From Anderseniella sp. (GTDB lineage: Bacteria; Pseudomonadota; Alphaproteobacteria; Rhizobiales; Aestuariivirgaceae), in the NCBI GenBank assembly GCA_030626025.1, contig DAOUPT010000001.1:62001-126000 (forward strand): a DNA stretch of 64,000 nt, read 5' to 3'. Below are positions 5,873 to 40,338 of the stretch, piece by piece (positions within the stretch are counted from its first letter, which is position 1; each line of letters opens with the position of its first letter). The translations under genes were made by a program, and so were the position numbers. Under the pieces are notes generated by a model that saw only the letters and a list, made by a program, of their open reading frames with translations, did not search any database and had not been told where the DNA came from.

Positions 5873-8335
5873 ATGGATACCCTTCTTTCGAAAACGAATA
5901 CACCTGAAATCGCATCGGCCTCACAAGGTAGCGCAGGCAACAGCCGGATTGTTCTGTCGGTGAGCGGCATGAGCTGTGCCGGTTGTGCATCGCGGGTCGA
6001 ACGGACCCTCAAACAAGTCACCGGCGTCTCAGATGCCAATGTTAATTTGCCAATGGAACGGGCGGATATTGAATTTGCAACTGCGCAAACCAGCGCTGCA
6101 GCATTAGCAGAAATTATCCGCGGTGCCGGTTTTGAAGTTCCGGCCCAAACAATTGTTCTTGATGTAACCGGCATGACCTGCGCCAATTGCGCCGGTCGGG
6201 TGGAGCAGGCTCTAAAAGCCCTGCCTGATGTACTTGATGCCCGGGTGAATGCGGCAACCGACCGGGCTGATGTTGACTGGCTGGGCGGTGATATCACGGT
6301 TTTAATCGATGCAGTTAAAAACGCAGGTTATGAAGCAACACCCCGATTAACCGCTACTGCGCAACGCAAAGAGCAGCAGGCAAAAAAAGCCCAACAGGAT
6401 GCAGCGGCTGCCAAAAAGGATCTGACCCTGTTTGCGATTTCAGTCGCCCTCACCCTGCCTCTGGTTGGCCAGATGGTCCTTAACGCCATCGGTTTCAATT
6501 TCCACATGTCTGGCTGGGTGGAACTGGCACTGGCAACCCCGGTACAATTTGTTATCGGTGCACGGTTCTATAAAGGCGCCTGGAATGCAATTAAGGCCGG
6601 TGCCGGAAATATGGATGTCCTGGTGGTTATGGGCACCAGTGCGGCTTATTTCTTTTCACTGGTGACACTTTTGCGCCTTGGCGAAGCTTCACGCGGTCAT
6701 CTCTATTTTGAAGCCGCCGCCGTCATTATCACCCTGATCCTGCTTGGCAAGATCCTTGAAGCCAGAGCCAAGCGCGGCACCACTGCAGCAGTCATTGAGT
6801 TAATGGCATTACGCCCCGAAGAGGCAAAAGTTTTGCGCAACGGGAAAGAAATCACCCTGCCGGTTGAAGACGTTACTCTTGGCGATATCGTTATCGTGCG
6901 CCCCGGCGAGCGCATTCCGGTTGACGGCGAAGTGGTTGAAGGTAAATCACAGGCCGATGAAGCACTGATTACCGGTGAGAGCCTGCCGGTCGACAAGGCA
7001 ATCGGTGATGCGGTGACCGGCGGCTCGGTCAACGGCACTGGCCTGCTGCACATCAAGGCCACCAAAGTTGGTCAGGACTCAACCCTCAACAAGATCATTA
7101 CCCTGGTCGAAAATGCTCAAAGCGGCAAGGCACCGGTTCAGCGCATGGTCGATAAAATCAGCGCCATTTTTGTACCAGTTATTATTGTCATCGCCGCCCT
7201 GACATTTGTCGGCTGGATGCTGGCTGGAGGCAGCTTTGAAAGCGCTCTGGTGGCGATGGTATCCGTCCTGGTCATCGCCTGTCCTTGTGCCCTTGGCCTG
7301 GCAACGCCAACCGCCATTGTTGCCGGCACCGGTGCAGCAGCCCGGGCCGGTATTTTGTTTAAAGATGTTGAAGCGCTTGAAATGGCCCACCGAGTTGACA
7401 CAGTCATTTTTGACAAAACCGGCACCCTGACAGAAGGTCACCCGGCTGTCAGTGACGTTCTTGCTGTCAATTTTGATGAGGCAGAACTCATTCGTCTGTC
7501 GGCCAGTTTGCAATCGGCCAGCGAGCACCCGTTGGCCAAAGCAATTGTTGCCCATGCAGACAGCATAAGCCTTTCCAAAGTCAAAGACTTTGCCAGCCAC
7601 ACCGGGTTTGGCGTCAGCGGCACGGTGGATGACCATAAACTTCTGATCGGCAACCGCGCCTTGATGCTTGATCGCAAAGTCAATGTCCCCGAAGAAATCG
7701 CGGCATCGCAATCGGTTTGGGAGGAAGAAGGCAAGACCGCCATACTGGTGGCAATCGATGGTTCACTGGCCGGTGTCATGGCAATTTTCGACCCTATTCG
7801 CAAGGAAACCATTGCAGCCATTGCCGGGTTGAAGAAACAGGGCATTGAGCCCCTTATGCTGACCGGTGATTCCGAGCGCACCGCCAGAACCGTAGCCAAA
7901 CTGGCCGGTATCGACAATTTCAAAGCTGAAACCCGCCCGCAAGACAAAGTCCGGGTGATTGAGGAATTACAAGCCCAGGGCAAAATCATCGCCATGGTAG
8001 GTGATGGTATTAACGATGCTCCGGCACTGGCGCTGGCCGATGTCGGTATTGCCATGGGGTCTGGCAGCGATGTGGCTATGGAAACCGCCGGCATCACGCT
8101 TATGCGTTCCAACCCCGGCATGGTTCACGCCGCCTTGCAGGTATCACGGCGCACCTGGTCCAAGCTGTGGCAAAACCTGTTCTGGGCCTTTATCTACAAT
8201 GTTATTGGCATACCGCTGGCCGTTCTCGGTCTGCTAAACCCGGCCATCGCCGGTGCTGCCATGGCCATGAGTTCAGTCAGCGTCGTCACCAGCTCCCTAA
8301 TGCTCCGCTTCTGGAAGCCTAAATCTATTTCATGA
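5873..8335 (+). CDS. copA: Cu(I)-exporting P-type ATPase CopA
   Basis: P1B-type copper ATPase of 820 aa in the inner membrane, exporting Cu(I) from the cytoplasm. Two N-terminal metal-binding domains carry GMSCAGC (about residue 32) and GMTCANC (about residue 100). The transmembrane CPC motif (IACPCALGL), phosphorylation site DKTGTLTEG, the HP dipeptide (SEHPLAKA) and the GDGINDAPAL hinge are all intact. The ATG at 5873 has GGAG 7 nt upstream; the in-frame TTG at 5843 lies between the promoter and this start and is less likely. It is a single-gene unit behind a CueR-type promoter with a hairpin terminator after it. Confidence 0.95.
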   Translation: MDTLLSKTNTPEIASASQGSAGNSRIVLSVSGMSCAGCASRVERTLKQVTGVSDANVNLPMERADIEFATAQTSAAALAEIIRGAGFEVPAQTIVLDVTGMTCANCAGRVEQALKALPDVLDARVNAATDRADVDWLGGDITVLIDAVKNAGYEATPRLTATAQRKEQQAKKAQQDAAAAKKDLTLFAISVALTLPLVGQMVLNAIGFNFHMSGWVELALATPVQFVIGARFYKGAWNAIKAGAGNMDVLVVMGTSAAYFFSLVTLLRLGEASRGHLYFEAAAVIITLILLGKILEARAKRGTTAAVIELMALRPEEAKVLRNGKEITLPVEDVTLGDIVIVRPGERIPVDGEVVEGKSQADEALITGESLPVDKAIGDAVTGGSVNGTGLLHIKATKVGQDSTLNKIITLVENAQSGKAPVQRMVDKISAIFVPVIIVIAALTFVGWMLAGGSFESALVAMVSVLVIACPCALGLATPTAIVAGTGAAARAGILFKDVEALEMAHRVDTVIFDKTGTLTEGHPAVSDVLAVNFDEAELIRLSASLQSASEHPLAKAIVAHADSISLSKVKDFASHTGFGVSGTVDDHKLLIGNRALMLDRKVNVPEEIAASQSVWEEEGKTAILVAIDGSLAGVMAIFDPIRKETIAAIAGLKKQGIEPLMLTGDSERTARTVAKLAGIDNFKAETRPQDKVRVIEELQAQGKIIAMVGDGINDAPALALADVGIAMGSGSDVAMETAGITLMRSNPGMVHAALQVSRRTWSKLWQNLFWAFIYNVIGIPLAVLGLLNPAIAGAAMAMSSVSVVTSSLMLRFWKPKSIS

Positions 8336-8375
8336 ACAATGAAAAGATTTGGGCTTTATACCGTTCACGGCGTAT

Positions 8376-8419
8376 CCGAGCTACGCTCGGGCCTGCACTT
8401 GCGCGGCGCAGTAGCGCCG
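8376..8419. repeat. Two GC-rich palindromes (REP-like) after copA
   Basis: CCGAGC-TAC-GCTCGG at 8376-8390 and CGGCGC-AGTA-GCGCCG at 8404-8419 lie between the convergent copA and nhaD genes, next to a third hairpin that acts as terminator. The arrangement resembles a small palindromic interspersed element, but no second copy was found in this window. Confidence 0.4.
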
Positions 8420-8436
8420 GGCAGCAGTCACCGCCT

Positions 8437-8471
8437 ACTGTTTCAGTAAAACTGAAACAGTCTTCTTTACT
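8437..8471 (+). terminator. copA: Rho-independent terminator of copA
   Basis: Perfect 10-bp stem ACTGTTTCAG / CTGAAACAGT with a TAAAA loop, followed by the T-rich run CTTCTTTACTCTTT. It ends just before the stop of the convergent nhaD gene. Confidence 0.7.
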
Positions 8472-8475
8472 CTTT

Positions 8476-9867
8476 CTAAAACAAAGACGCATTAATCCAT
8501 AGGTGGGCATAAATGCTGGCTGCATATCCAAGTGCTATTGCCCATGTCCATTTCAGATGGCTCATAAAGGTGTAATAACCTCGCGCCGTTCCCATCAAGG
8601 CAACACCGGCTGCTGAACCAATTGACAGTAATGAACCACCGACTCCGGCCGTCAGGGTAATCAGCAACCACTGGCCGCGAACCATTTCAGGGTCCATGGT
8701 CAACACTGCAAACATCAATGGAATGTTGTCAACAATGGCCGACAGGGCACCGATAATGACATTGGCACTGGTGTGACCAAGGTCGACATAAAGCAGTTGT
8801 GACATGGTCTCCAGATAGCCGACAACCCCGAGGCCACCCACGGCAAAAATAATCCCGAAGAAGAAAAACAGCGTATCCCACTCAACTCGCTCAACCTCTT
8901 TAAAGGCATCAAGAACCATGTCAGGTTCGTTCTTGCGATCCGGGTGTTTTTTAAGAAAATAACTGAACATCATCAAATAACCAAGGCCGAGCATCATACC
9001 CATCGCTGGTGGCAGGTGAAAAAAGTTCTTGAATGAAACGGCGGTAAAAATAGTTGACGCAAACAGAAAAATAACCACCTTTGCGCCCCGCTTCAACGAC
9101 GGATTTTCACTCACAGCTTCAGGCGTAATCTTGGGCACTGAAAAACTCATAATGACCGCGGGAACAATATAATTGATCACCGAGGGAATGAAAATCACAA
9201 AGAAACCGGCAAATTCAATTTTTCCCTTATTCCAGACCATCAGTGTTGTAATGTCGCCAAAAGGTGAGAATGCCCCGCCAGCGTTGGCCGCAACCACCAC
9301 ATTGACACAAGCCAGCACAATAAATTTTGTCGAACCTGTTCCAACCGCCATAACCACAGCGCCCATAATCAGCGCGGTTGTCAGATTATCCAGCAAGGGT
9401 GACAGGAAGAACGCAAGAATACCGGTAAGCCAAAACAGTTTTTGGTAACTCAAGCCCATACTGACCAACTTGGCCCGCAAGACATCAAAAACCCGGCGTT
9501 CTTCAAGCGAGTTCACATAGGTGATCGCCACCATCAAAAACAGGAAAAGCTCGCCATATTCCAGAATATTGTGTTTGGCTGCCGCATTAAGGGCCGCTTC
9601 CTTGCCGGTGCCCATATAGGCAAAGGCGACACAGGCCCATATCAGACCTGCCGCCAGCATAACCGGCTTTGATTTACGCATATGGATGGCTTCTTCAAAA
9701 ATAACCAGAAGATAGGCAATAACAAAAATTGCCAGGGCAAAATAACCCGCCGCATGATTGGTTAGGTCAAGCAATGCGCTCGGGCCGGTTGTTTCACTAC
9801 TTGCATAAGCCAGCGTCGGTGACATGGCCAAAACCCCAGCCAGCAAACCCCATAAAACACGCACCAT
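8476..9867 (-). CDS. nhaD: Na+/H+ antiporter, NhaD family
   Basis: Integral membrane sodium/proton antiporter of the ion transporter superfamily, about 463 aa, with a signal-like N-terminus (MVRVLWGLLAGVLAMSPTLA) followed by about a dozen hydrophobic segments. Seen: the conserved SPLLDNLTTALIMG and AIVDNIPLMFA membrane motifs with buried Asp-Asn pairs, and the NAGGAFSPFGD segment shared by NhaD proteins. The ATG at 9867 is preferred over an in-frame GTG at 9882 because GAGGG and GTAGG lie between the two. ArsB belongs to the same superfamily, but this sequence has the NhaD-specific motifs. It stands alone, head to head with nothing and convergent with copA. NhaD is common in marine and halophilic bacteria. 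Confidence 0.88.
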   Translation of the reverse strand: MVRVLWGLLAGVLAMSPTLAYASSETTGPSALLDLTNHAAGYFALAIFVIAYLLVIFEEAIHMRKSKPVMLAAGLIWACVAFAYMGTGKEAALNAAAKHNILEYGELFLFLMVAITYVNSLEERRVFDVLRAKLVSMGLSYQKLFWLTGILAFFLSPLLDNLTTALIMGAVVMAVGTGSTKFIVLACVNVVVAANAGGAFSPFGDITTLMVWNKGKIEFAGFFVIFIPSVINYIVPAVIMSFSVPKITPEAVSENPSLKRGAKVVIFLFASTIFTAVSFKNFFHLPPAMGMMLGLGYLMMFSYFLKKHPDRKNEPDMVLDAFKEVERVEWDTLFFFFGIIFAVGGLGVVGYLETMSQLLYVDLGHTSANVIIGALSAIVDNIPLMFAVLTMDPEMVRGQWLLITLTAGVGGSLLSIGSAAGVALMGTARGYYTFMSHLKWTWAIALGYAASIYAHLWINASLF

Positions 9868-9947
9868 CAAACCTACCCTCACCTGTTGTTTTCATCGCCT
9901 CTCATAAGAAATATCACGCAGTTCTGCAAGGACTCAAGCGATAAACT

Positions 9948-11162
9948 TTACAGGTTATACCCGGTTTCACCGTGAGAAGTATAATCAAGACCTTCGATCT
10001 CGCTTTGTTCATCAATCCGCAGGCCAACACTTGCCTGACAGATTTTGACGATAATAAAAGTTGCCACACCCGACCAGATGGCTGTGACAGCAACACCGAT
10101 AGCCTGCACGCCAAACTGACCAATAATTGTTTGCCCTTCAGCAAGAGCGGTTCCACCCGGCAGGCTGATCAGAAAAACCAGCAACAATGTGCCAAGCGCC
10201 CCGCCCACACCGTGCACCGCCAGCACATCAAGACTGTCATCAATCCCGATGCGGTTACGGATAAGATCAACTGCATAATAACACAAAAGACCACCGGCAA
10301 GCCCGAGCATAACACCAGCCATCGGCCCGACATAGCCCGAAGCAGGCGTAATTGTCGCCAACCCGGCAATGGTGCCGGTGACAATACCAACCAGCGAGGG
10401 TTTGCCAAACCGCTTCCACTCAATAACCATCCATACCAGCGAGCCGGTCGCTGCTGACATATGGGTAACCAGCAAGGCCATACCGGCATCAGTCCCGGCT
10501 GACAAAGCACTACCTGCATTAAAGCCGAACCAGCCAATCCACAGCATCGATGCCCCGATCATCACCATCCAGGGTGCATGGGGCGGTTGAATATGAGAGG
10601 GAAACCCGCGCCGCTTGCCCAGCATGACAGCAATGACCAGCGCCGAAACACCGGCCGTGACATGTACCACAATACCCCCGGCAAAATCCATCACCCCCAT
10701 ATCGGCCAGCCAGCCACCCCCCCACACCCAATGGGTAACCGGCGCATAAACCACCAGCAGCCAGATAGAGGAAAACAGCAACACTGCGGCAAATTTTATC
10801 CGCTCAACATAGGCCCCGACAATCAGCGTCGGGGTAATAATGGCAAAGGTTGCCTGAAACATGAAGAACACGGTTTCGGGCAGGCCGCTGCCCTCCATGA
10901 CCGTATCACGGCCAACACTGAGCAAAAACGACTTGCTCAATCCACCGATGAGACCGTTACCATCAGCAAAGGCCAGAGAATAGCCAACGATCAGCCACAA
11001 AAGCGAAGCCACACAGGCAATCGCCATACAGTGCATCAACACCGAAAGAATATTTTTCGACCGCACCAACCCGGCGTAAAACAATCCCAATGCCGGTAAT
11101 GTCATAAACAATACCAACGCCGTTGATGTTAAAATCCAGGCGGTATTTGCTTCGTTGACCAT
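9948..11162 (-). CDS. amt: Ammonium transporter Amt
   Basis: Amt/MEP/Rh ammonium channel, 404 aa, eleven membrane segments expected. Seen: N-terminal LPALGLFYAGLVRSKN, the THWVWGGGW loop, the DFAGGIVVHVTAGVSALV signature with the conserved pore His, and HGVGGALG with the second pore His. The start at 11162 (MVNEANTAW) has GAGGG 7 nt upstream; the longer frame from 11195 has no such site. No glnK/glnB gene is beside it, unlike the usual glnK-amtB pair, so regulation by a PII protein would be in trans. Confidence 0.93.
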   Translation of the reverse strand: MVNEANTAWILTSTALVLFMTLPALGLFYAGLVRSKNILSVLMHCMAIACVASLLWLIVGYSLAFADGNGLIGGLSKSFLLSVGRDTVMEGSGLPETVFFMFQATFAIITPTLIVGAYVERIKFAAVLLFSSIWLLVVYAPVTHWVWGGGWLADMGVMDFAGGIVVHVTAGVSALVIAVMLGKRRGFPSHIQPPHAPWMVMIGASMLWIGWFGFNAGSALSAGTDAGMALLVTHMSAATGSLVWMVIEWKRFGKPSLVGIVTGTIAGLATITPASGYVGPMAGVMLGLAGGLLCYYAVDLIRNRIGIDDSLDVLAVHGVGGALGTLLLVFLISLPGGTALAEGQTIIGQFGVQAIGVAVTAIWSGVATFIIVKICQASVGLRIDEQSEIEGLDYTSHGETGYNL

Positions 11163-11251
11163 GATCTGTCCCTCTTGAAAGTTCGACGGCAACATAACAG
11201 GTCAGATCAGCCACGCACTGAAAAAATTAAAAATGCGGCAATATGCTTTCA

Positions 11252-11268
11252 TGCCTAATTTTTAGGCA
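11252..11268. promoter_or_regulatory. 17-bp palindrome between argG and amt
   Basis: TGCCTAA-TTT-TTAGGCA has perfect 7-bp arms, 90 bp upstream of the amt start and 28 bp after the argG stop. There is no T-run on the minus strand after it, so an operator for amt is somewhat more likely than an argG terminator. The regulator is unknown. Confidence 0.4.
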
Positions 11269-11295
11269 GGAACCGTCACCCTCAGAGTTCCGGCT

Positions 11296-12525
11296 CTAAT
11301 CCTTAATATTCCTGTTGCGCGCTGCCAGCGTGCGAAGCCGCAGGGCGTTCAGTCGAATAAAGCCGTGGGCATCTTGTTGGTTATAAGCCCCTTCATCATC
11401 CTCAAAGGTCACCAATTCTTCCGAATACAGCGACTTGGGCGACTTGCGGCCTTCAACAATGACGTTACCCTTATAGAGCTTCAACCGCACCGTACCTTCA
11501 ACATGCTCCTGGGATTTATCGATCAACGCTTGCAGCATTTCGCGTTCAGGTGCAAACCAGAAACCATTATAGATCATCCGGGCATAATCAGGCACAAGGC
11601 TGTCCTTAAGGTGCATGGCATCACGATCAAGGGTCAGGGTTTCCATTGCCCGGTGGGCGGCCAGCAAAATGGTTCCGCCAGGTGTTTCATAAACCCCGCG
11701 TGACTTCATGCCAACAAACCGGTTCTCGACCAGATCAAGCCGACCGATACCGTTGTCATGGCCATATTCGTTCAATTTGGCAAAAAGCGTTGCTGGTGAC
11801 ATGGCCTTGCCGTTGATTGCAACCGGGTCACCATATTTAAATTCAATCTCGATGACTTCGGCCTTGTCTGGAGCATCCATCGGATCGATGGTGCGCTGGA
11901 ACACATAGGGCTCAGGGCCAACCCACGGATCTTCCAGCACTTTGCCTTCAGAAGAGGAATGCAGCATGTTGGCATCAACCGAGAACGGTGCCTCACCCCG
12001 TTTATCTTTAGGCACCGGTATCTGGTGTTTTTCGGCGAAATCAAGCAAATCAGTCCGGCTCTTGAATTCCCAGTCCCGCCACGGCGCAATAACCTTGATG
12101 TCGGGATCAAGGGCATAGGCTGCAAGTTCAAACCGCACCTGATCATTGCCTTTGCCGGTCGCACCATGGGCGATTGCATCAGCCCCGGTTTCGCGGGCAA
12201 TTTCAACCAGACGTTTTGAAATCAGCGGCCGGGCAATCGAGGTTCCAAGCAGATAAACCCCTTCATAAACAGCATTGCCCCGAAACATCGGAAAGACAAA
12301 ATCCTTGATGAATTCCTCGCGCAAATCCTCAATATAGATTTCCTTGATACCCAGCATCTCGGCTTTTCTGCGCGCTGGTTCCAGCTCATCGCCCTGGCCC
12401 AGATCAGCGGTAAAGGTCACCACTTCACAATTGTAAGTCTCTTTCAGCCATTTCAGAATAATGGACGTATCAAGCCCACCGGAATAAGCCAGAACAACTT
12501 TTTTGATTTTGTCGGTTTGTGCCAT
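11296..12525 (-). CDS. argG: Argininosuccinate synthase
   Basis: Joins citrulline and aspartate with ATP to make argininosuccinate in arginine synthesis; cytoplasmic, 409 aa, full length for the family. The ATP-binding N-terminus [16 protein letters not shown] is intact, as are [13 protein letters not shown] and the [10 protein letters not shown] region. The ATG at 12525 is chosen over an adjacent TTG; AAGG lies about 10 nt upstream. It is a single-gene unit here, with argJ of the same pathway 34 kb away. Confidence 0.96.
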
Positions 12526-31076: not shown

Positions 31077-32411
31077 ATGAAAATTCTGATGATCGGTACC
31101 GGCTATGTCGGGTTGGTAACAGGGGCATGCTTTGCTGAGCTTGGTCACCACGTGACCTGCATGGACAAAGACAAGTCGAAAATTGCACGATTAAATAACG
31201 ATGAAATCCCAATTTTTGAACCTGGCCTGAATGAACTGGTTGCCTGGAACAAGGGTCATGGCAAACTGCGTTTCATCGACACTCTCGATGATCTGGGAGT
31301 TGATGTGCCTGACTTTGTTTTCCTGGCAGTTGGAACACCTTCTCAAAAACAAACCGGCAAAGCAGACCTTTCCTTTGTCTTTGCCGCAGCCGGTGAGGCA
31401 GCAGAAAAACTCTCCGAAATGAATGCCGATGGGTTCACGGTTTTCGTCACCAAGTCGACCGTGCCGGTTGGAACCAGCAAACAGGTACACAAGGTTATTT
31501 GCCAACACTTGCCTCAAGAAAGATTTGCTGTGGCCTCCAACCCCGAGTTCTTGCGCGAGGGGGCGGCAATCGAAGACTTTATGAAACCTGACCGCATTGT
31601 TGTTGGTAGCGACAGCGAACAAGCCCGTGGCATGTTTGAAGAAATGTATCGACCCTTAACCCGTCAGGGCTATCCACTGGTCGTGACATCAACAATTGCC
31701 ACTGCCGAGCTGACAAAATATGCCGCAAATGCTTTTTTGGCGACAAAAATCACCTTCATCAATGAGCTTTCCCGCCTATGTGAGAAAGTTGACGCGCGCG
31801 TGGATGAGGTTGCTCTGGGACTTGGGCTGGACAGCCGGATTGGCAACAAGTTCTTAAACCCCGGACCGGGGTTTGGCGGCTCCTGTTTGCCAAAGGACAC
31901 ACTGGCGCTGGTTAAAACCGCGATTGATTTTGACTCTCCGCTGGAGATCGTTGAAACCGTCATCCGTTCCAATGACAAGCACAAACATTTGATGACCGAA
32001 AAAATTCGTCATGCTGCTGGTGGCGATGTCAAAGGCAAACGCATCGGCATTCTGGGCCTTGCTTTCAAGGCAAACACCGATGATGTTCGCGATTCTCCAT
32101 CGCTGACAATTATTCCCGGCCTTGAGCAGGATGGCGCTTCGGTTATTTCCTATGACCCTGAAGGAATGGATCAGGCCCGGGCTAGCCTGCCAGATAGCCA
32201 ATATGCAGAAACGGCCGAACAGGTTTTTGAAAATGCCGACATGGTTGTGCTGGTGACCGAATGGCCACAATTTACCACGCTGGACTGGCCCGACCTGTAC
32301 AAAAAGATGCGCACTCCGGTCGTGGTTGATCTTCGCAACATCCTGCCTCACGCAAAACTGCGCGAGATCGGATTTACCTGTCACAGCACCGGCGGATTTG
32401 TCGGCGAGTAG
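31077..32411 (+). CDS. UDP-glucose 6-dehydrogenase
   Basis: 444 aa. Converts UDP-glucose to UDP-glucuronate with two NAD+. Seen: Rossmann motif GTGYVGLVTGACFAELG at residue 7, STVPVGTS, and the catalytic Cys in GPGFGGSCLPKDT. Supplies uronic acid for surface polysaccharide. It ends 3 nt before the stop of the convergent ThDP gene, so there is no room for a private terminator. Confidence 0.94.
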   Translation: MKILMIGTGYVGLVTGACFAELGHHVTCMDKDKSKIARLNNDEIPIFEPGLNELVAWNKGHGKLRFIDTLDDLGVDVPDFVFLAVGTPSQKQTGKADLSFVFAAAGEAAEKLSEMNADGFTVFVTKSTVPVGTSKQVHKVICQHLPQERFAVASNPEFLREGAAIEDFMKPDRIVVGSDSEQARGMFEEMYRPLTRQGYPLVVTSTIATAELTKYAANAFLATKITFINELSRLCEKVDARVDEVALGLGLDSRIGNKFLNPGPGFGGSCLPKDTLALVKTAIDFDSPLEIVETVIRSNDKHKHLMTEKIRHAAGGDVKGKRIGILGLAFKANTDDVRDSPSLTIIPGLEQDGASVISYDPEGMDQARASLPDSQYAETAEQVFENADMVVLVTEWPQFTTLDWPDLYKKMRTPVVVDLRNILPHAKLREIGFTCHSTGGFVGE

Positions 32412-32414
32412 ATC

Positions 32415-34019
32415 CTAAAGCCTCCCCTCATAGGCCTTGCGCCCGATACGTGCCGCGATCAGTGTAAAGCTATCGCGGCCAAGGGCGGCACTGACTTCAG
32501 CATAAACAGCGTCACGGTCATCGCACCACTTTCCATAGCCACCAAGCGCTTTGGCAACTGCCGGTAAATCCGAACCGCCAAAATCTACCGCCAGATTTGC
32601 CATCTGCGATCCGCGTTGTTTCAGTTCGATCAACCCCAGACTTTCATCAACAAAAACAATAATCGGAATCCCAAGTTTTTTCTCACGAAGTGTCGCCAGC
32701 TCACCTAAAAACATTTCAAGGCCCGCATCGCCAATGAAAGCGGCAACCGGACGATCCGGTTCGGCAATTTTACGACCGGCTGCAAGTGGTACAGCGCAAC
32801 CCATCGTACACAGCGCCGTTGATTGCAGCATGCCGCGTGGTTCAAAACATTGCCACGCCTGCGATAACAAAATTCTGTGGGCGCCGGAATCAACCGTCAC
32901 AATCGTCTCAGCAGGCAAGGCTTTACGGCACTCATCAATGACAGCTGCCGGTCCCCATTCTTCATCCAGATTTAACCCGTTGCGTAATTGTTCACGCACT
33001 TTGCCAGGCTCACCATCGGGCCAACTGGCTTTGGGTTTATTGTCAGCACAAAGCACCGTCAAACCGGCAGCTACATTGCCAACAAAATTAATTGCTGCCT
33101 GATGCATATAATGAGTATTCGACACTGCAGAAAAATCAATCACCCGGGCATCATCGGCCCAGACATTCTGCCAACCGATGCGCATTTCAATCGGATCATA
33201 ACCAGCCAGAATGATACAATCGCTGGCCTTCACCAATGGCAGTAATTTGGCATCGGCACTTGGTGCCAGCCCAGCACCACCAAGTGCCAAACGATCATTT
33301 TCAGGCAGTATACCTTTGCCTTTATAGGATGTAATCAGCGGGATGGCATGATCGCGGCAAAATTGCCCAACAGTTTCACAACCATTCTGGTTCAGTGTGT
33401 CGACACCAGCAATGACCAGCGGTCTTTCAGCTTCGGCAAACCAGCGGCGGGCTGTATCAAGATCTGGCCCGGCAGCCGGTCCAACCGGTGCAAGCCTTGC
33501 CCGGCGTGGCCAGACCGGATTTTCTTCCGCTGTCTGCACATCAATCGGCACATCAAGCAAAACCGGTCCCTGCCGGTCTTCCATGGCAATCGCCACCGCC
33601 TTGTCGGCAAGTATCGCTGCCGTATTTGCTTCGACTCGAAACGCTGCCTTGGTCACTTCCTGCGCCAGTTTGAGATGATCCATCACCTGATGTGTATAGG
33701 TGTGTTGCTCAATTGCCGGTACACAGCCGGTCAGGGCAATCATCGGCACCCGGTCTTGCAGCGCATTGGCGATTACGTTGATGGCATTGGCGATACCGGG
33801 ACCAATGGTAGCGATCAAAATTGCCGGTGCGCCATCAAAATGAAAAACTCCTTCGCCCATAAACCCGGCGCAGTTCTCATGCTTGACCAAATGCATTTCA
33901 ATGCCGACTCGATCCAGCGCTGCCATCAAAACCATTACTTCGCCGCCGGGAATACCAAAGGCATGACGACAGCCAGCATCGTACAATCGCCGGGCAATAA
34001 TATCGGAAGCGGTCGGCAT
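32415..34019 (-). CDS. Thiamine-diphosphate-dependent acetolactate synthase-like enzyme
   Basis: 534 aa with the full Pyr / central / PP domain layout of the acetolactate synthase family. The catalytic Glu is present in VKHENCAGFMGEG (about residue 47), with IGPGIANAINVIANA after it. The metal/ThDP motif starts as GDAG, but the usual NN 25-26 residues later is VD (IVFVDESLGLIEL), so the Asn ligand is replaced by Asp. No ilvN-like small subunit is near. It starts directly at the stop of the desulfinase-like gene, so the two are tightly coupled. Candidate activities: decarboxylation or carboligation of a 2-oxo acid linked to the sulfinate pathway. Not assigned further. Confidence 0.8.
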   Translation of the reverse strand: MPTASDIIARRLYDAGCRHAFGIPGGEVMVLMAALDRVGIEMHLVKHENCAGFMGEGVFHFDGAPAILIATIGPGIANAINVIANALQDRVPMIALTGCVPAIEQHTYTHQVMDHLKLAQEVTKAAFRVEANTAAILADKAVAIAMEDRQGPVLLDVPIDVQTAEENPVWPRRARLAPVGPAAGPDLDTARRWFAEAERPLVIAGVDTLNQNGCETVGQFCRDHAIPLITSYKGKGILPENDRLALGGAGLAPSADAKLLPLVKASDCIILAGYDPIEMRIGWQNVWADDARVIDFSAVSNTHYMHQAAINFVGNVAAGLTVLCADNKPKASWPDGEPGKVREQLRNGLNLDEEWGPAAVIDECRKALPAETIVTVDSGAHRILLSQAWQCFEPRGMLQSTALCTMGCAVPLAAGRKIAEPDRPVAAFIGDAGLEMFLGELATLREKKLGIPIIVFVDESLGLIELKQRGSQMANLAVDFGGSDLPAVAKALGGYGKWCDDRDAVYAEVSAALGRDSFTLIAARIGRKAYEGRL

Positions 34020-35231
34020 TTATTTGTTTCCTTTTTGCGCAAGCCGTGAATAACCATCACGGGTCTGGGGCACTTTCATATCAAGAATACGACCGGCAAT
34101 CAGATTGCGCAGCATCTGGGCCGTACCGCCACCGATGGTGAACATGCGGGCATCACGAACCATCCGCTCCACCGGCAAATTGCGCGAATACCCCGCCGCA
34201 CCATGAAGCTGCAAAGCATCGTTGGACACCTTGACGGCGTTTTCAGAGGCAATCAGTTTTGCCTGCGCTGCCAGCAGCGGATCAGGAAAACCGGTGTTGG
34301 TCGTCTGGGCACTGCAAGCGGCCCGCCACAACATCATCCGGGCGGCATCAAGGGCAACATTCATGTCCGCCAGCATCCACTGCAATCCCTGAAACTCGGC
34401 AATCGGACGGTCAAACTGCTCACGAACTTTGACATATTCCATCGCCTGATCATAGGCGCCATGGGCAATCCCGAGCGCCACCGTACCAGCCCCGACCCGC
34501 TGGCCATTATAGGCATTCATCAATCCGGCAAAGCCACGCTTTAAACCCTCAGGTGGAATAACCGCCATGTCTTCATCGATTTCAAGGTCCTCAAAAATAA
34601 TCTCGGTTTCAGGAATGCCGCGCAGGCCCATCGCCGGTTCGCGCTTGCCGATTTTTAAACCTTCATCTTCATCACCCACAGCAATAAAACCACCTATGCC
34701 CTGACGCTCGCCGTGTTCTTCAACCTGGGCAAAAATCAAATGGGTTTTTGACACCCCGCCCCCGGTAATCCAGTGCTTGATGCCATTGATGATATACTTG
34801 TCACCCTTTTTAACCGCCGTCGTGGTCATCGAGGTGGCAGCTGAACCCGAGCCCGGTTCGGTAATACAAATCGCCGGTTTATCACCGGCCAGTATCAAGG
34901 GAGCGACTCGCTCTATTTGCTTTTTGGAACCATAGGCGGTGATCGCCCCGATCGCCCCCATATTACCTTCAACCACAATACGGGCCGTGACACCGCAAAC
35001 CCGCGCCAGTTCTTCAACCACCAGCACCACATCCATATAGCTCAGACCAAGACCGCCATATTCCCTGGGAATGGTCATGCCCATAAAACCGGCATCAGTC
35101 AGGTCTTTGATATTATCCCAAGGGTACTGCTCGCTACGATCAATTTCGGCAGCCCGACCTTTGAAAACCTCATTGGCCAATCGCCGGGCAGTCTCCTGAA
35201 TTTGGATTTGTTCATCTGACAGTTGAAACAT
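34020..35231 (-). CDS. 3-sulfinopropionyl-CoA desulfinase-like acyl-CoA dehydrogenase homologue
   Basis: 403 aa acyl-CoA dehydrogenase fold. The usual catalytic Glu near the C-terminus (EGT) is GGGT in RDARMFTIGGGTAQ, and the alternative Glu position of isovaleryl-CoA dehydrogenase is Gln (YNGQRVGAG, Q244). Known: Acd of Advenella mimigardefordensis lacks the Glu and splits 3-sulfinopropionyl-CoA to propionyl-CoA and sulfite, using an Arg at position 84 to hold the sulfino group and a Gln near 246. Counting from MFQLSDEQ, Arg84 is present here (ARIVVEGN), and EQYPWDN and KVPQTRDGY also match that enzyme as remembered. The ATG at 35231 is preferred over a GTG three codons earlier. It sits 19 nt after a family III CoA-transferase, as in known 3-sulfinopropionate clusters. 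Confidence 0.78.
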   Translation of the reverse strand: MFQLSDEQIQIQETARRLANEVFKGRAAEIDRSEQYPWDNIKDLTDAGFMGMTIPREYGGLGLSYMDVVLVVEELARVCGVTARIVVEGNMGAIGAITAYGSKKQIERVAPLILAGDKPAICITEPGSGSAATSMTTTAVKKGDKYIINGIKHWITGGGVSKTHLIFAQVEEHGERQGIGGFIAVGDEDEGLKIGKREPAMGLRGIPETEIIFEDLEIDEDMAVIPPEGLKRGFAGLMNAYNGQRVGAGTVALGIAHGAYDQAMEYVKVREQFDRPIAEFQGLQWMLADMNVALDAARMMLWRAACSAQTTNTGFPDPLLAAQAKLIASENAVKVSNDALQLHGAAGYSRNLPVERMVRDARMFTIGGGTAQMLRNLIAGRILDMKVPQTRDGYSRLAQKGNK

Positions 35232-35250
35232 CTCTAGCACTCTCTGCTTT

Positions 35251-36603: not shown

Positions 36604-37479
36604 CTAAATTTGTGAGGTGCCAACTTGCCGCAAGACATCCGTTAATGCTTCAACCAACAGCGATTGCGGGCTTGCCTGACGTTCAATCATCACCAGTGAG
36701 CGGTGCAATGGCGGATCACCAAAGGGCAGCCATTTAAGGCTGTCAAGCATGGCCGATGCGGTACGGGGCAACGGCACCACTGAAACCCCAAGGCCAAAGC
36801 TGACCATACGGGTTATGGCATCCAGTGAATCAATTTCCATTCCCCGTTTGACGACAATCCCTCTGTCACTGAGATAACGCTCGATCAGCTGACCGGTCCA
36901 GGCATGACGGGAAAACTGAATAAAAGATCCCGCTTCCAGTAGCTCCCGATCAGTTTCACCGGGCACATCGGGCGGTGCAATAACCAGAAACGGCTCGCGT
37001 GTTATCCGGTTGGAAATCAACCCATCAGCCAATCTGACCGGTTCTGCAACAATCGCAGCATCAAGTTCACCGGTTCGCGTTGCAGCGGCCAGTTCAGCCG
37101 ACAAACCACTGGTCACCTTGATATGCAATTTTGGGTGTCGCTCACGCATCATTGCCAAAGCCGGTGGTAAGATTGACGCTACACTGGTCGGCACGGCACC
37201 AAAGGCCAGAATACCTTCAAGGGGAACATCATCGCCATGACGGGTAATATCTTCACACATCTCTAGCACCTTGCGGGCCTTTTCAACCAGCGTGCGACCT
37301 TTGTCGTTGAGCAGCGGTGGACGGTGGCGACGGTCAAAAACCTCGGTGCCAATTTCCTGCTCCAACCCTTTAATCTGAAGACTGACAGCAGATTGCGTCA
37401 AACCAATCGCGTCAGCAGCGGCAGCAAAGGTTCCAAAATCGGAAATTGCCACAAGAGTTTTTAACTGGCGAAATTCCAT
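36604..37479 (-). CDS. LysR-family transcriptional regulator
   Basis: 291 aa. Helix-turn-helix at residues 1-60 (MEFRQLKTLVAISDFGTFAAAA, then GLTQSAVSLQIKGLE), followed by an effector domain with GILAFGAVPTSVASILP. Translation from the ATG at 37479 gives the standard LysR start; six extra codons are possible. It lies in the same direction as, and 132 bp before, the CoA-transferase/desulfinase/ThDP genes, and is their likely regulator. Known 3-sulfinopropionate clusters also carry a LysR gene. Confidence 0.9.
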   Translation of the reverse strand: MEFRQLKTLVAISDFGTFAAAADAIGLTQSAVSLQIKGLEQEIGTEVFDRRHRPPLLNDKGRTLVEKARKVLEMCEDITRHGDDVPLEGILAFGAVPTSVASILPPALAMMRERHPKLHIKVTSGLSAELAAATRTGELDAAIVAEPVRLADGLISNRITREPFLVIAPPDVPGETDRELLEAGSFIQFSRHAWTGQLIERYLSDRGIVVKRGMEIDSLDAITRMVSFGLGVSVVPLPRTASAMLDSLKWLPFGDPPLHRSLVMIERQASPQSLLVEALTDVLRQVGTSQI

Positions 37480-37558
37480 CGATCCTAAAATATCCATATT
37501 GCTTGAGTTCTGCTTACTTTAAACTCTAGCACAGCCTTTTAGATTAGCAACGCAATAT

Positions 37559-38740
37559 CTACAGATGAAAGAAAGGCCGAGATTTAATGCCAAAATAACT
37601 GCCAATAAAACCGGCAACCAGCCAGGCCCAGCCATGAAAACTGCCCGATGCTATGCCTGAAAACAGTGCACCGATGTTACAACCGGCAGCAAGCCGGGCC
37701 CCGTAACCCATCAGCAGACCGCCAATTACCGCCGCCAGAACAGATCGCACTGGTAATCGGGCAAAGGTCCCAAATCGCCCGGCCAGACCAGCAGCAAGGG
37801 CAGCACCAAACAGGATGCCAAAATTCATTGCCGAAGTATCTTCAGCAAACAGACTGCCTTTGAGAGCCCGTGAAGGATATCCCCAGGTCCAAAACTCTGT
37901 CTGGCTCAAATCCACACCAACCGCACCGAGCGCCTTTGTCCCCCACAATGCGTAACCAAATGATATCGACCACAAATGCCCGGTAAGCGCCAGTACGCCA
38001 AAATTACCAAGTGCCAGTGCCAATCCGCCCCAAAGTAATGGCCAGGGTCCACGGGTAAACCGCCTGATCAGACTTTCATGTTGGTGACCGGGATAATCGC
38101 CATGTTGCAAAATCCCGTGTTTTTTCCGTTCAATCACAATGGTGACCCAGGCGATAAACGCCAAAAGACTCAATGTAATAATCAGGGCACCGGCAAGGCC
38201 AAATGCCTGTAGCAAAGTCCCGCTTGGCAACCGCCATGTTGTAAACCACCAGGGCAAGTGAGCACTGCCAATCACCGACCCGGCCAGAAAAAAGATCAGG
38301 GTAATCACCATCCGTGTCGAGCCGCCGCCAACCGCATACAGCGTACCCGATGCGCATCCCCCGCCCAGTTGCATGCCATAGCCAAAAACAAAAGCCCCAA
38401 GCAACATGGCAATACCAACCGGTGCGACAGAGGGACTAACACCATGGCCTGCAATCTCGCCAGCATTGAGGATTGGTAGAATCAGCACAACGGCGATGGC
38501 AAAGGTGAACAACTGGGCCCGCATTCCGGCACCGCGGCCTTCATTAACCAGAATTCGCCAGCCAAAGGTAAAACCAAATCCGGCATGATAAAGAGAAATG
38601 CCCATGGCGCCGCCAAGCAGATAAAGTAAGGGTTTGCCATTTGGAACCAGATTGCCGATATAAAGCGCGCCACCGAAAAGGATCAGTGACGCAACTGCTA
38701 CCACCAGCCAATTAACGCGCGGCGCAGAATTGGCCAGCAT
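37559..38740 (-). CDS. YeeE/YedE family membrane transporter
   Basis: 393 aa with about ten hydrophobic segments and the two conserved Cys motifs GGGCASGTLYA and AAGCNIGALFSG, one in each half, plus HAGFGFTFGWR. Members include TsuA, which takes up thiosulfate; others are linked to sulfur or selenium traffic. Placed just upstream of a LysR gene and a putative sulfite-releasing pathway, so export of sulfite or uptake of a sulfur compound is inferred. Confidence 0.88.
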   Translation of the reverse strand: MLANSAPRVNWLVVAVASLILFGGALYIGNLVPNGKPLLYLLGGAMGISLYHAGFGFTFGWRILVNEGRGAGMRAQLFTFAIAVVLILPILNAGEIAGHGVSPSVAPVGIAMLLGAFVFGYGMQLGGGCASGTLYAVGGGSTRMVITLIFFLAGSVIGSAHLPWWFTTWRLPSGTLLQAFGLAGALIITLSLLAFIAWVTIVIERKKHGILQHGDYPGHQHESLIRRFTRGPWPLLWGGLALALGNFGVLALTGHLWSISFGYALWGTKALGAVGVDLSQTEFWTWGYPSRALKGSLFAEDTSAMNFGILFGAALAAGLAGRFGTFARLPVRSVLAAVIGGLLMGYGARLAAGCNIGALFSGIASGSFHGWAWLVAGFIGSYFGIKSRPFFHL

Positions 38741-38805: not shown

Positions 38806-40338
38806 CTATGCCACTGGAACACTGTCTTGTGATGGCGAACCGGACAAAGCGCTTTCCTGTTCACGCAGGGTTGTTTTAAGCACCTTGCCATAATTGTTTT
38901 TCGGTAACTCTGAGACAAAACGATAAATTTTGGGGCGTTTAAAGCGGGCGATATTCTCAAGACAATGAGCATCAAGTGTCTCACTGTCTGTGTCACCAAC
39001 CACATAGGCAACGACAATTTCACCCCAGTCAGAATCAGCCCGGGCAATAACAGAGACTTCTTCGACACCGTGAGCTGTCAACAAAACTTCTTCGATTTCA
39101 CGCGGATAAATATTACTGCCCCCGGAAATAATGAGGTCTTTCGACCGGTCGGTAAGGGTTAAAAACCCGTCTTTATCAAAATGACCAATGTCGCCTGTAT
39201 GCAACCAGCCGTCTTTTAGCGTCGCAAGACTGGCCTTTTCATCACGCCAATAACCTGACATCACAGCATCCCCCCGGCAGATGATCTCTCCCACCTCGCC
39301 AACCGCCAGACTGTTTCCATCAGCATCGACAGTGCGTACATTCATACAGCTATCAGGAACACCAACTGTTCCCAAACGATAGCGCCAGTCGGGGTGTTGT
39401 CGGTCGCCAATCATCGCGCGCGGCAGATGGGTAATGGTCATCGGGCTTTCACCCTGGCCGTAAAGCTGTGCCAGTTTCGGTCCAAACCGGTCCAGCGCAT
39501 CAATGCAATCAGTGACATACATCGGTGCACCACCATAGACGATGAGTTTAAGATTATCTGTATCAACATCCTTATCAAATAACGTCAGACGCCGCACCAT
39601 GGTCGGGGCGGCAAACATCGAAAGATTTGGCCAATGTTGCAAATCGGAAAATATTTCAAGCGGATCAAAACGCCCGCTTTCAGGAATAACATTACAGGCC
39701 ATGGCGCAAACATGAGGCAACATCCATAACCCGGCCCCATGACTGAGCGGTGCCGGATGATAAATTGTATCGCCAGGCCGGACCCGATCAAAATCAGCAA
39801 AGTAATTAAGCGTCATCGTCATCAGGTTTCGATGACTCAACATGGCTCCCTTTGGGTTACCGGTGGTTCCCGATGTAAAGAAAATCCATGCCAGCTCATC
39901 GGGCCGCACCTCGCAAACCACTTGAGGGTCGAACCGGACCAGTTCCTCATAGTCAGGATCAGTACAGCAAAACACAGGTTTTGTGGTAACCTGACTGATT
40001 ATCGAGGTTAGTTCCGGCGTGGTGATGCACAGGCTGATATCGGCTTTATCCAGAATATACTGAAATTCTTTATGATGCAGTTTGGCGTTTACCGGCACAG
40101 CCACCAGCCCGGCATGCCAGATAGCAAAAAGCACCTCAATATAATGAGGAACATTATACATAACCACGCCAACCCGGTCACCGCGCCTAAGGCCAAATTT
40201 ACGTGTCAGGCCCGCTGCAAGGCCTGCAGTACGACGCGATAATGTGCGATAATCATGAACAACAGACCGGCCCAAACCCACAGCAGGTGCGCCGGGAACA
40301 ACACGTCCGGCCCGTGCAACCCAGTGAGCAATATTCAT
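38806..40338 (-). CDS. AMP-forming acyl-CoA synthetase
   Basis: 510 aa. Seen: phosphate loop FFTSGTTGNPKGA (about residue 150), LYGQGESPMTITH, HTGDIGHFDKDGFLTLTDRSKD, GGSNIYPREIEE and the catalytic Lys in NNYGKVLKT. The substrate-binding N-terminal half resembles fatty acid or aryl-acid ligases without a clear match. It lies 65 nt before the YeeE/YedE gene on the same strand, so it may belong to the sulfinate cluster and activate a related acid. Confidence 0.85.
   Translation of the reverse strand: MNIAHWVARAGRVVPGAPAVGLGRSVVHDYRTLSRRTAGLAAGLTRKFGLRRGDRVGVVMYNVPHYIEVLFAIWHAGLVAVPVNAKLHHKEFQYILDKADISLCITTPELTSIISQVTTKPVFCCTDPDYEELVRFDPQVVCEVRPDELAWIFFTSGTTGNPKGAMLSHRNLMTMTLNYFADFDRVRPGDTIYHPAPLSHGAGLWMLPHVCAMACNVIPESGRFDPLEIFSDLQHWPNLSMFAAPTMVRRLTLFDKDVDTDNLKLIVYGGAPMYVTDCIDALDRFGPKLAQLYGQGESPMTITHLPRAMIGDRQHPDWRYRLGTVGVPDSCMNVRTVDADGNSLAVGEVGEIICRGDAVMSGYWRDEKASLATLKDGWLHTGDIGHFDKDGFLTLTDRSKDLIISGGSNIYPREIEEVLLTAHGVEEVSVIARADSDWGEIVVAYVVGDTDSETLDAHCLENIARFKRPKIYRFVSELPKNNYGKVLKTTLREQESALSGSPSQDSVPVA

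Follow-up and report, generated by a model that had tools for sequence, protein, structure and literature searches.

A thiamine diphosphate-dependent enzyme encoded beside a desulfinase, a candidate 2-oxo acid decarboxylase in 3-sulfinopropionate metabolism

What reaction is carried out by a thiamine diphosphate (ThDP)-dependent enzyme whose gene directly follows that of a desulfinase? This question is raised by an operon on the minus strand of the window (the whole 64,000-nt stretch of DNA analyzed here), in which a CoA-transferase gene is followed by a desulfinase gene and then by the ThDP gene (Table 1). Judging from operon evidence alone, our answer is a tentative one, plausible though far from secure: the ThDP gene may encode a decarboxylase that acts non-oxidatively on a 2-oxo acid and so supplies the 3-sulfinopropionate (3SP) pathway from an amino acid.

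The operon and its desulfinase

Table 1. Coordinates of the ThDP gene and its upstream neighbours in the window
Feature	Position	Strand	Basis or remark
ThDP-dependent enzyme, 534 aa	32415..34019	minus	Pfam TPP_enzyme_N/M/C; separate clade beside acetolactate synthases
3-Sulfinopropionyl-CoA desulfinase (Acd), 406 aa, GTG start as called	34020..35240	minus	NF042439
Class III CoA-transferase (Act-like), 406 aa	35251..36471	minus	PF02515, 423.9 bits
LysR-type regulator, upstream of operon	36604..37497	minus	PF00126 + PF03466
YeeE/YedE-type sulfur transport membrane protein, possibly linked	37559..38740	minus	PF04143, 225 bits
AMP-dependent CoA ligase, operon-upstream, same strand	38806..40338	minus	

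The ThDP reading frame is translated from an ATG at 34019 down to 32415, and the plus strand of the same interval contains seven stops. The ATG follows the TAA of the desulfinase gene with no base between them, just as an earlier note on this DNA had recorded, and a gap of 10 bases separates the desulfinase gene from the CoA-transferase gene. A convergent UDP-glucose-dehydrogenase-like gene ends at 32411, 3 bases beyond the ThDP gene, which is therefore the last gene of the operon. With this convergent gene downstream and the desulfinase and CoA-transferase genes upstream, no small-subunit ORF adjoins the ThDP gene, in agreement with the earlier view that the enzyme has no regulatory subunit. 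A promoter and terminator scan gave no clear excess over shuffled sequences. As for the genes further upstream, LysR relatives flank many desulfinase-ThDP loci elsewhere, and of the 126 distinct loci of the ThDP clade, 11 have a YeeE homologue within 6 kb of the ThDP gene, none of these 11 having the desulfinase there.

The identity of the desulfinase appears credible from its sequence features. The protein passes the NCBI curated equivalog model for 3-sulfinopropanoyl-CoA desulfinase (NF042439; 654.6 vs. a cut-off of 600), and its presumed specificity for 3SP is the one assigned by that model. Its closest solved relative is PDB 5af7 (520 bits; the next structure scores 255), which we take to be the Advenella enzyme. 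The Arg of 5af7 at position 84 is kept as R87, and the motif FTIGGGTAQ has Gly where ordinary acyl-CoA dehydrogenases have their catalytic Glu; Arg84 and the missing Glu are presumably functional markers of the desulfinase. For the CoA-transferase, the best NCBIfam model is succinate-glutarate CoA-transferase, at 489.3 bits and thus under the cut-off of 750, and we propose that this enzyme charges 3SP with CoA.

A separate clade beside the acetolactate synthases

In annotated records the ThDP clade is called only "thiamine pyrophosphate-binding protein". Sulfopyruvate decarboxylase (ComDE) consists of two separate subunits, alpha and beta, unlike the enzyme studied here, which carries all three TPP_enzyme domains on a single chain. 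Its closest sequences and fold are those of catabolic acetolactate synthases (ALS; AlsS/BudB, PRK08322), with which it shares the three domains, an Asp in the metal motif and the lack of a detectable regulatory subunit. The predicted structure (AF2; mean pLDDT 93.4) has B. subtilis AlsS (4rji) as its nearest fold, with a TM score of 0.90 and 24% identity. These likenesses would be expected of an ALS-like carboligase that acts on pyruvate and merely shares an operon with sulfur genes. However, the enzyme is only ~24-29% identical to catabolic ALS and falls below the cut-offs of all the NCBIfam ALS models that it matched (284.8 vs. 509, 234.3 vs. 510 and 218.1 vs. 551.1 bits). In a tree of 41 sequences, the ThDP family forms one clade with support of 100/99, outside the ALS clade; its sister group is the PRK08322-type ALS (98/99 for the pair, including one unassigned paralogue), while AHAS, Xsc, PoxB, Gcl and Oxc all lie outside it, several on long branches. 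At the base of the clade stand members without a desulfinase, from Rhizobium, Bosea and Roseibium. The tree thus places the enzyme in no characterized clade, including those of Xsc, Oxc and ALS, three of the families with which the earlier note had suggested comparing it. Further, at 26 positions the ThDP clade shows little or no variation in residues that are absent or rare in 18 other ThDP sequences, and residues such as R280, W283, H303, H306 and R382 set the clade apart from catabolic ALS, as does its tie to CoA-transferase and desulfinase genes. No acetolactate-handling gene was recognized among the neighbours examined, and the source genome has a separate AHAS (L002, 989.8 vs. 974). An ALS-like role is therefore improbable in our estimate.

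The second N of the NN motif is a metal ligand in ThDP enzymes. The earlier note had reported that the usual GDAG...NN had become GDAG...VDE, and this reading of the motif holds: GDAG occupies residues 430-433 and FVDES residues 456-460, with Asp458 aligned to the second N. In an alignment of 61 sequences, E48, G430 and D431 are invariant and D458 nearly so, and the enzyme therefore has the catalytic Glu of the PYR domain and the metal motif. Both are common to ThDP enzymes generally and so are not specific for a 2-oxo acid decarboxylase. Nor is the Asp the special feature of the metal site that it had been taken for, as it also occurs in the PRK08322-type sister clade (in motifs such as LDGEYG and LNDSAYG), in Klebsiella ALS and in B. 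subtilis AlsS. Since both the sister group and the characterized ALS have it, the Asp is an inherited trait on the ThDP clade's side of the tree.

The same comparisons bear on two other families. At 76 of the 126 loci, the ThDP gene has a class III CoA-transferase gene within 6 kb, an arrangement that recalls oxc-frc of E. coli, and one could suppose that the ThDP enzyme acts on the CoA thioester made by the transferase, in the manner of oxalyl-CoA decarboxylase or 2-hydroxyacyl-CoA lyase. However, E. coli Oxc sits on a very long branch, far off in the tree, and HACL/Oxc structures score ~100-108 bits, compared with 149-174 for the best ALS structures, which leaves this reading very improbable. 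Sulfoacetaldehyde acetyltransferase (Xsc) comes to mind for any ThDP enzyme that adjoins a sulfite-releasing enzyme. Here, however, the Xsc clade is separate at 100/100, and the source genome encodes a genuine Xsc at another locus (G000:C44:40033-41760; 952.6 vs. a cut-off of 676.4, TIGR03457). On these two grounds an Xsc identity was rejected, and we regard it as hardly conceivable. Because the source genome has its own AHAS and its own Xsc, neither of these jobs is left open for the ThDP enzyme.

Conservation of the pairing

The pairing of the ThDP and desulfinase genes is more than chance: it extends beyond the source genome, recurring in several families of the order. Among 59 relatives, the ThDP gene (counted at about 50% identity or more) is present in 10, the desulfinase gene in 15 and both in 8 (p ~9e-5, shared ancestry ignored); the two genes are adjacent in six of these eight. 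A survey of 398 genomes of the phylum found the ThDP gene in 14, the desulfinase gene in 7 and both in 5 (Fisher p = 5e-7, uncorrected for phylogeny). In three of these five (G105, G240 and G265) the genes lie far apart, and the link is therefore more than inherited adjacency. At the level of loci, 80 named ones include 30 in which the desulfinase gene adjoins the ThDP gene; the desulfinase gene is nearby in 31 of the 80, the CoA-transferase gene in 50, and at least one of the two in 71. The corresponding numbers within 6 kb at the 126 distinct loci are 45 for the desulfinase and 103 for at least one of the two genes.

Several variants of the locus were seen. In SAR324/deltaproteobacterial MAGs (L082-L085, L089 and L093), where the flanks were examined, genes for a Mur-ligase-like protein and an AMP-dependent ligase come after the desulfinase-ThDP pair on the same strand. 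The desulfinase beside the ThDP gene is in two reading-frame pieces on a Parasedimentitalea marina plasmid and in a Deltaproteobacteria MAG (L167:8958-9986 and L093:3295-4516, respectively), through either gene decay or sequencing error. A search of 350 genomes of one family, presumed to be Burkholderiaceae, yielded a single strong relative of the ThDP gene of Cupriavidus necator (G602), which stands alone with neither desulfinase nor CoA-transferase nearby.

The association is not universal. Thirteen of 18 ThDP-positive genomes that were checked have no desulfinase above the cut-off, so that the ThDP/CoA-transferase pair must work without a desulfinase there. Moreover, the ThDP gene lies near an OpgC-type gene in 52 of the 126 loci, often along with genes for a TPR-like protein and DUF302 and never together with the desulfinase. 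This context, seen in roseobacters and some other Alphaproteobacteria (L090, L118, L172-L174, L176, L178, L180 and L181, among others, with no desulfinase at the locus), comprises the CoA-transferase, a TPR-like protein with no Pfam match, an OpgC-family acyltransferase and DUF302. The ThDP clade therefore has a second context that the pathway proposed below does not explain, and the natural alternative substrate would be a related anionic keto acid. Under such an explanation, the enzyme would decarboxylate a similar anionic 2-oxo acid (2-oxoglutarate, or 2-oxo-4-sulfobutanoate from homocysteate), and ThDP/CoA-transferase would be the older unit to which the desulfinase was added later in one branch, as the desulfinase-less members at the base of the clade would also lead one to expect. 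However, the desulfinase and ThDP genes co-occur even when unlinked, and the aminotransferase and semialdehyde dehydrogenase genes described below are found only at desulfinase loci. We consider this alternative unlikely, though the most serious of those weighed here.

Wider operons and a proposed route from an amino acid to 3SP

Longer operons at some loci hint at the function. In L259, from an order-mate genome (G985), one strand carries in succession the desulfinase, the ThDP enzyme, an exporter-like protein (PF03601), an aminotransferase resembling aspartate transaminase, a CoA-transferase and a dehydrogenase of the succinate-semialdehyde dehydrogenase (SSADH) subfamily (713 vs. a cut-off of 646). 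Read from sequence, this single operon would supply all five of the steps proposed below, together with a putative exporter. On plasmid pBB1 of C. necator N-1, a CoA-transferase-desulfinase pair is followed ~4 kb on by genes for a class I aminotransferase, the ThDP enzyme and an aldehyde dehydrogenase that is SSADH-like but scores below the cut-off (606 vs. 646); no dioxygenase gene is present at the locus. This gene set gave rise to the idea that the aminotransferase produces a keto acid and that the ThDP enzyme then decarboxylates it. An aminotransferase also accompanies the ThDP enzyme and the desulfinase at L079, L125 and L132. Within 6 kb, the aspartate-type aminotransferase thus occurs at 5 of the 126 loci and an SSADH-like gene at 2; the aminotransferase is confined to desulfinase loci (5/45 vs. 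0/81, p = 0.005), and both SSADH-like genes are at desulfinase loci, among the five with the aminotransferase. The five aminotransferases form two groups, with 69-72% identity inside each group and 46-48% between them, so that two lineages probably acquired or retained the association.

Other loci offer hints of amino acid sulfur chemistry, namely a polar-amino-acid ABC transporter that ends 21 bp before the desulfinase in L109 and the PLP enzyme of L072. The latter (L072:6706-7893, retrieved again as L247:2642-3829) comes directly after the ThDP gene and is nearest to D-cysteate sulfo-lyase, at 341.5 vs. a cut-off of 450. Several other neighbours belong by Pfam to unrelated families (PHO4 transporter, deaminase, TPR, NMT1-like and beta-lactamase). 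The aminotransferase of L132, a tight aminotransferase/CoA-transferase/desulfinase/ThDP operon (6359-11605) in a record titled Streptomyces coffeae, is 72% identical to that of C. necator N-1, reflecting assembly contamination or recent transfer.

If the desulfinase acts on 3-sulfinopropionyl-CoA, then 3SP would be preceded by the aldehyde 3-sulfinopropanal, this aldehyde by the keto acid 2-oxo-4-sulfinobutanoate, and the keto acid by the amino acid homocysteine sulfinate. These compounds are the sulfinate counterparts of succinate semialdehyde, 2-oxoglutarate and glutamate, respectively, and each partner enzyme appears to be of a type that handles a glutamate- or succinate-like compound. In the proposed pathway, homocysteine sulfinate would be transaminated to 2-oxo-4-sulfinobutanoate, which the ThDP enzyme would decarboxylate to 3-sulfinopropanal. 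A succinate-semialdehyde-type dehydrogenase would then oxidize the aldehyde to 3SP, the CoA-transferase would convert 3SP to 3-sulfinopropionyl-CoA, and the desulfinase would yield propionyl-CoA and sulfite. We infer from this scheme the activity of the ThDP enzyme, its substrate, which is probably 2-oxo-4-sulfinobutanoate, and its product, probably 3-sulfinopropanal. The aminotransferase and SSADH-like dehydrogenase are absent from the 64,000-nt window, and in the source organism both would be supplied from elsewhere in the genome. A commercial mix of GABA-transaminase and SSADH converts homohypotaurine quantitatively to 3-sulfinopropionic acid (PMC11396700), and therefore a dehydrogenase of this type can make 3SP.

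The earlier note had offered two possible activities, decarboxylation of a sulfinyl or sulfonyl oxo acid and carboligation of an aldehyde made in the pathway. Decarboxylation of a sulfinyl 2-oxo acid gives the best fit to the wider operons, all of which include an aminotransferase and two of which add a semialdehyde dehydrogenase, whereas nothing points to carboligation. Thus the link to the desulfinase and this decarboxylation survive from the earlier interpretation, the activity itself being deduced from gene context, while the significance given to the Asp, carboligation and the supposed lack of ThDP enzymes in known 3SP clusters do not.

A transaminase, a sulfino-aldehyde, a CoA thioester and the loss of sulfite also feature in hypotaurine degradation via sulfinoacetaldehyde in Paracoccus; compared by description only, that route is one carbon shorter than the proposed pathway and has no ThDP decarboxylase. 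Among known 3SP systems, the dithiodipropionate cluster of Advenella mimigardefordensis DPN7 resembles the window in its desulfinase, family III CoA-transferase and LysR regulator, but there 3SP is supplied by the 3-mercaptopropionate dioxygenase Mdo, and no ThDP enzyme is among the cluster genes shown (PMC5373536). In contrast, the thiodipropionate/3SP cluster of Variovorax paradoxus TBEA6 does include a putative acetolactate synthase gene, ilvX (VPARA_05550), which contradicts the earlier statement that known clusters have no ThDP enzyme; ilvX was 6.78-fold more abundant on 3SP than on gluconate, yet its deletion left growth on thiodipropionate unchanged (PMC6370202). Likened by gene content rather than by sequence, TBEA6 thus matches the window operon in having a putative ThDP enzyme with act and acdA, and differs from the source organism in having Mdo, which was not found here. 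If ilvX is an orthologue, a role of the ThDP enzyme upstream of 3SP would account both for the abundance of ilvX on 3SP and for the unchanged growth of the deletion mutant on thiodipropionate, although its dispensability equally fits no role at all.

We also considered Mdo as the source of 3SP. The Diaphorobacter Mdo query found no match in the source organism, and this candidate was set aside; PF05995 likewise gave no match in the source genome, although this model is insensitive and missed even the good Mdo-like match in G196. Among 20 desulfinase-bearing genomes, a protein search found a 3-mercaptopropionate-dioxygenase-like gene in two, and the only good match was that in G196, a genome without the ThDP gene. 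By the searches used, six of the 20 lack both the ThDP gene and an Mdo-like gene; therefore, 3SP must have further sources unless genes were missed.

A full-text literature search for the two proposed intermediates, with most subscription literature outside its reach, found no paper, and no earlier description of an amino-acid supply route into the 3SP pathway was found. In the literature that was found, 3SP figures chiefly as an intermediate in the Mdo-dependent breakdown of industrial thioethers and disulfides. Where no Mdo-like gene is found, the tie between a ThDP enzyme and the desulfinase points to another, perhaps natural, source. It is possible, though we hold this broader claim with more doubt than that of a decarboxylase feeding 3SP, that marine and soil Proteobacteria have an undescribed catabolic pathway that breaks down homocysteine sulfinate in the manner of glutamate, with propionyl-CoA and sulfite as products; the ThDP clade would then be a new decarboxylase family, and 3SP would have a natural source besides 3-mercaptopropionate. 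If an amino acid sulfinate is indeed the source, oxidized homocysteine would be linked to propionyl-CoA and the release of sulfite, and the ThDP clade would gain a testable activity.
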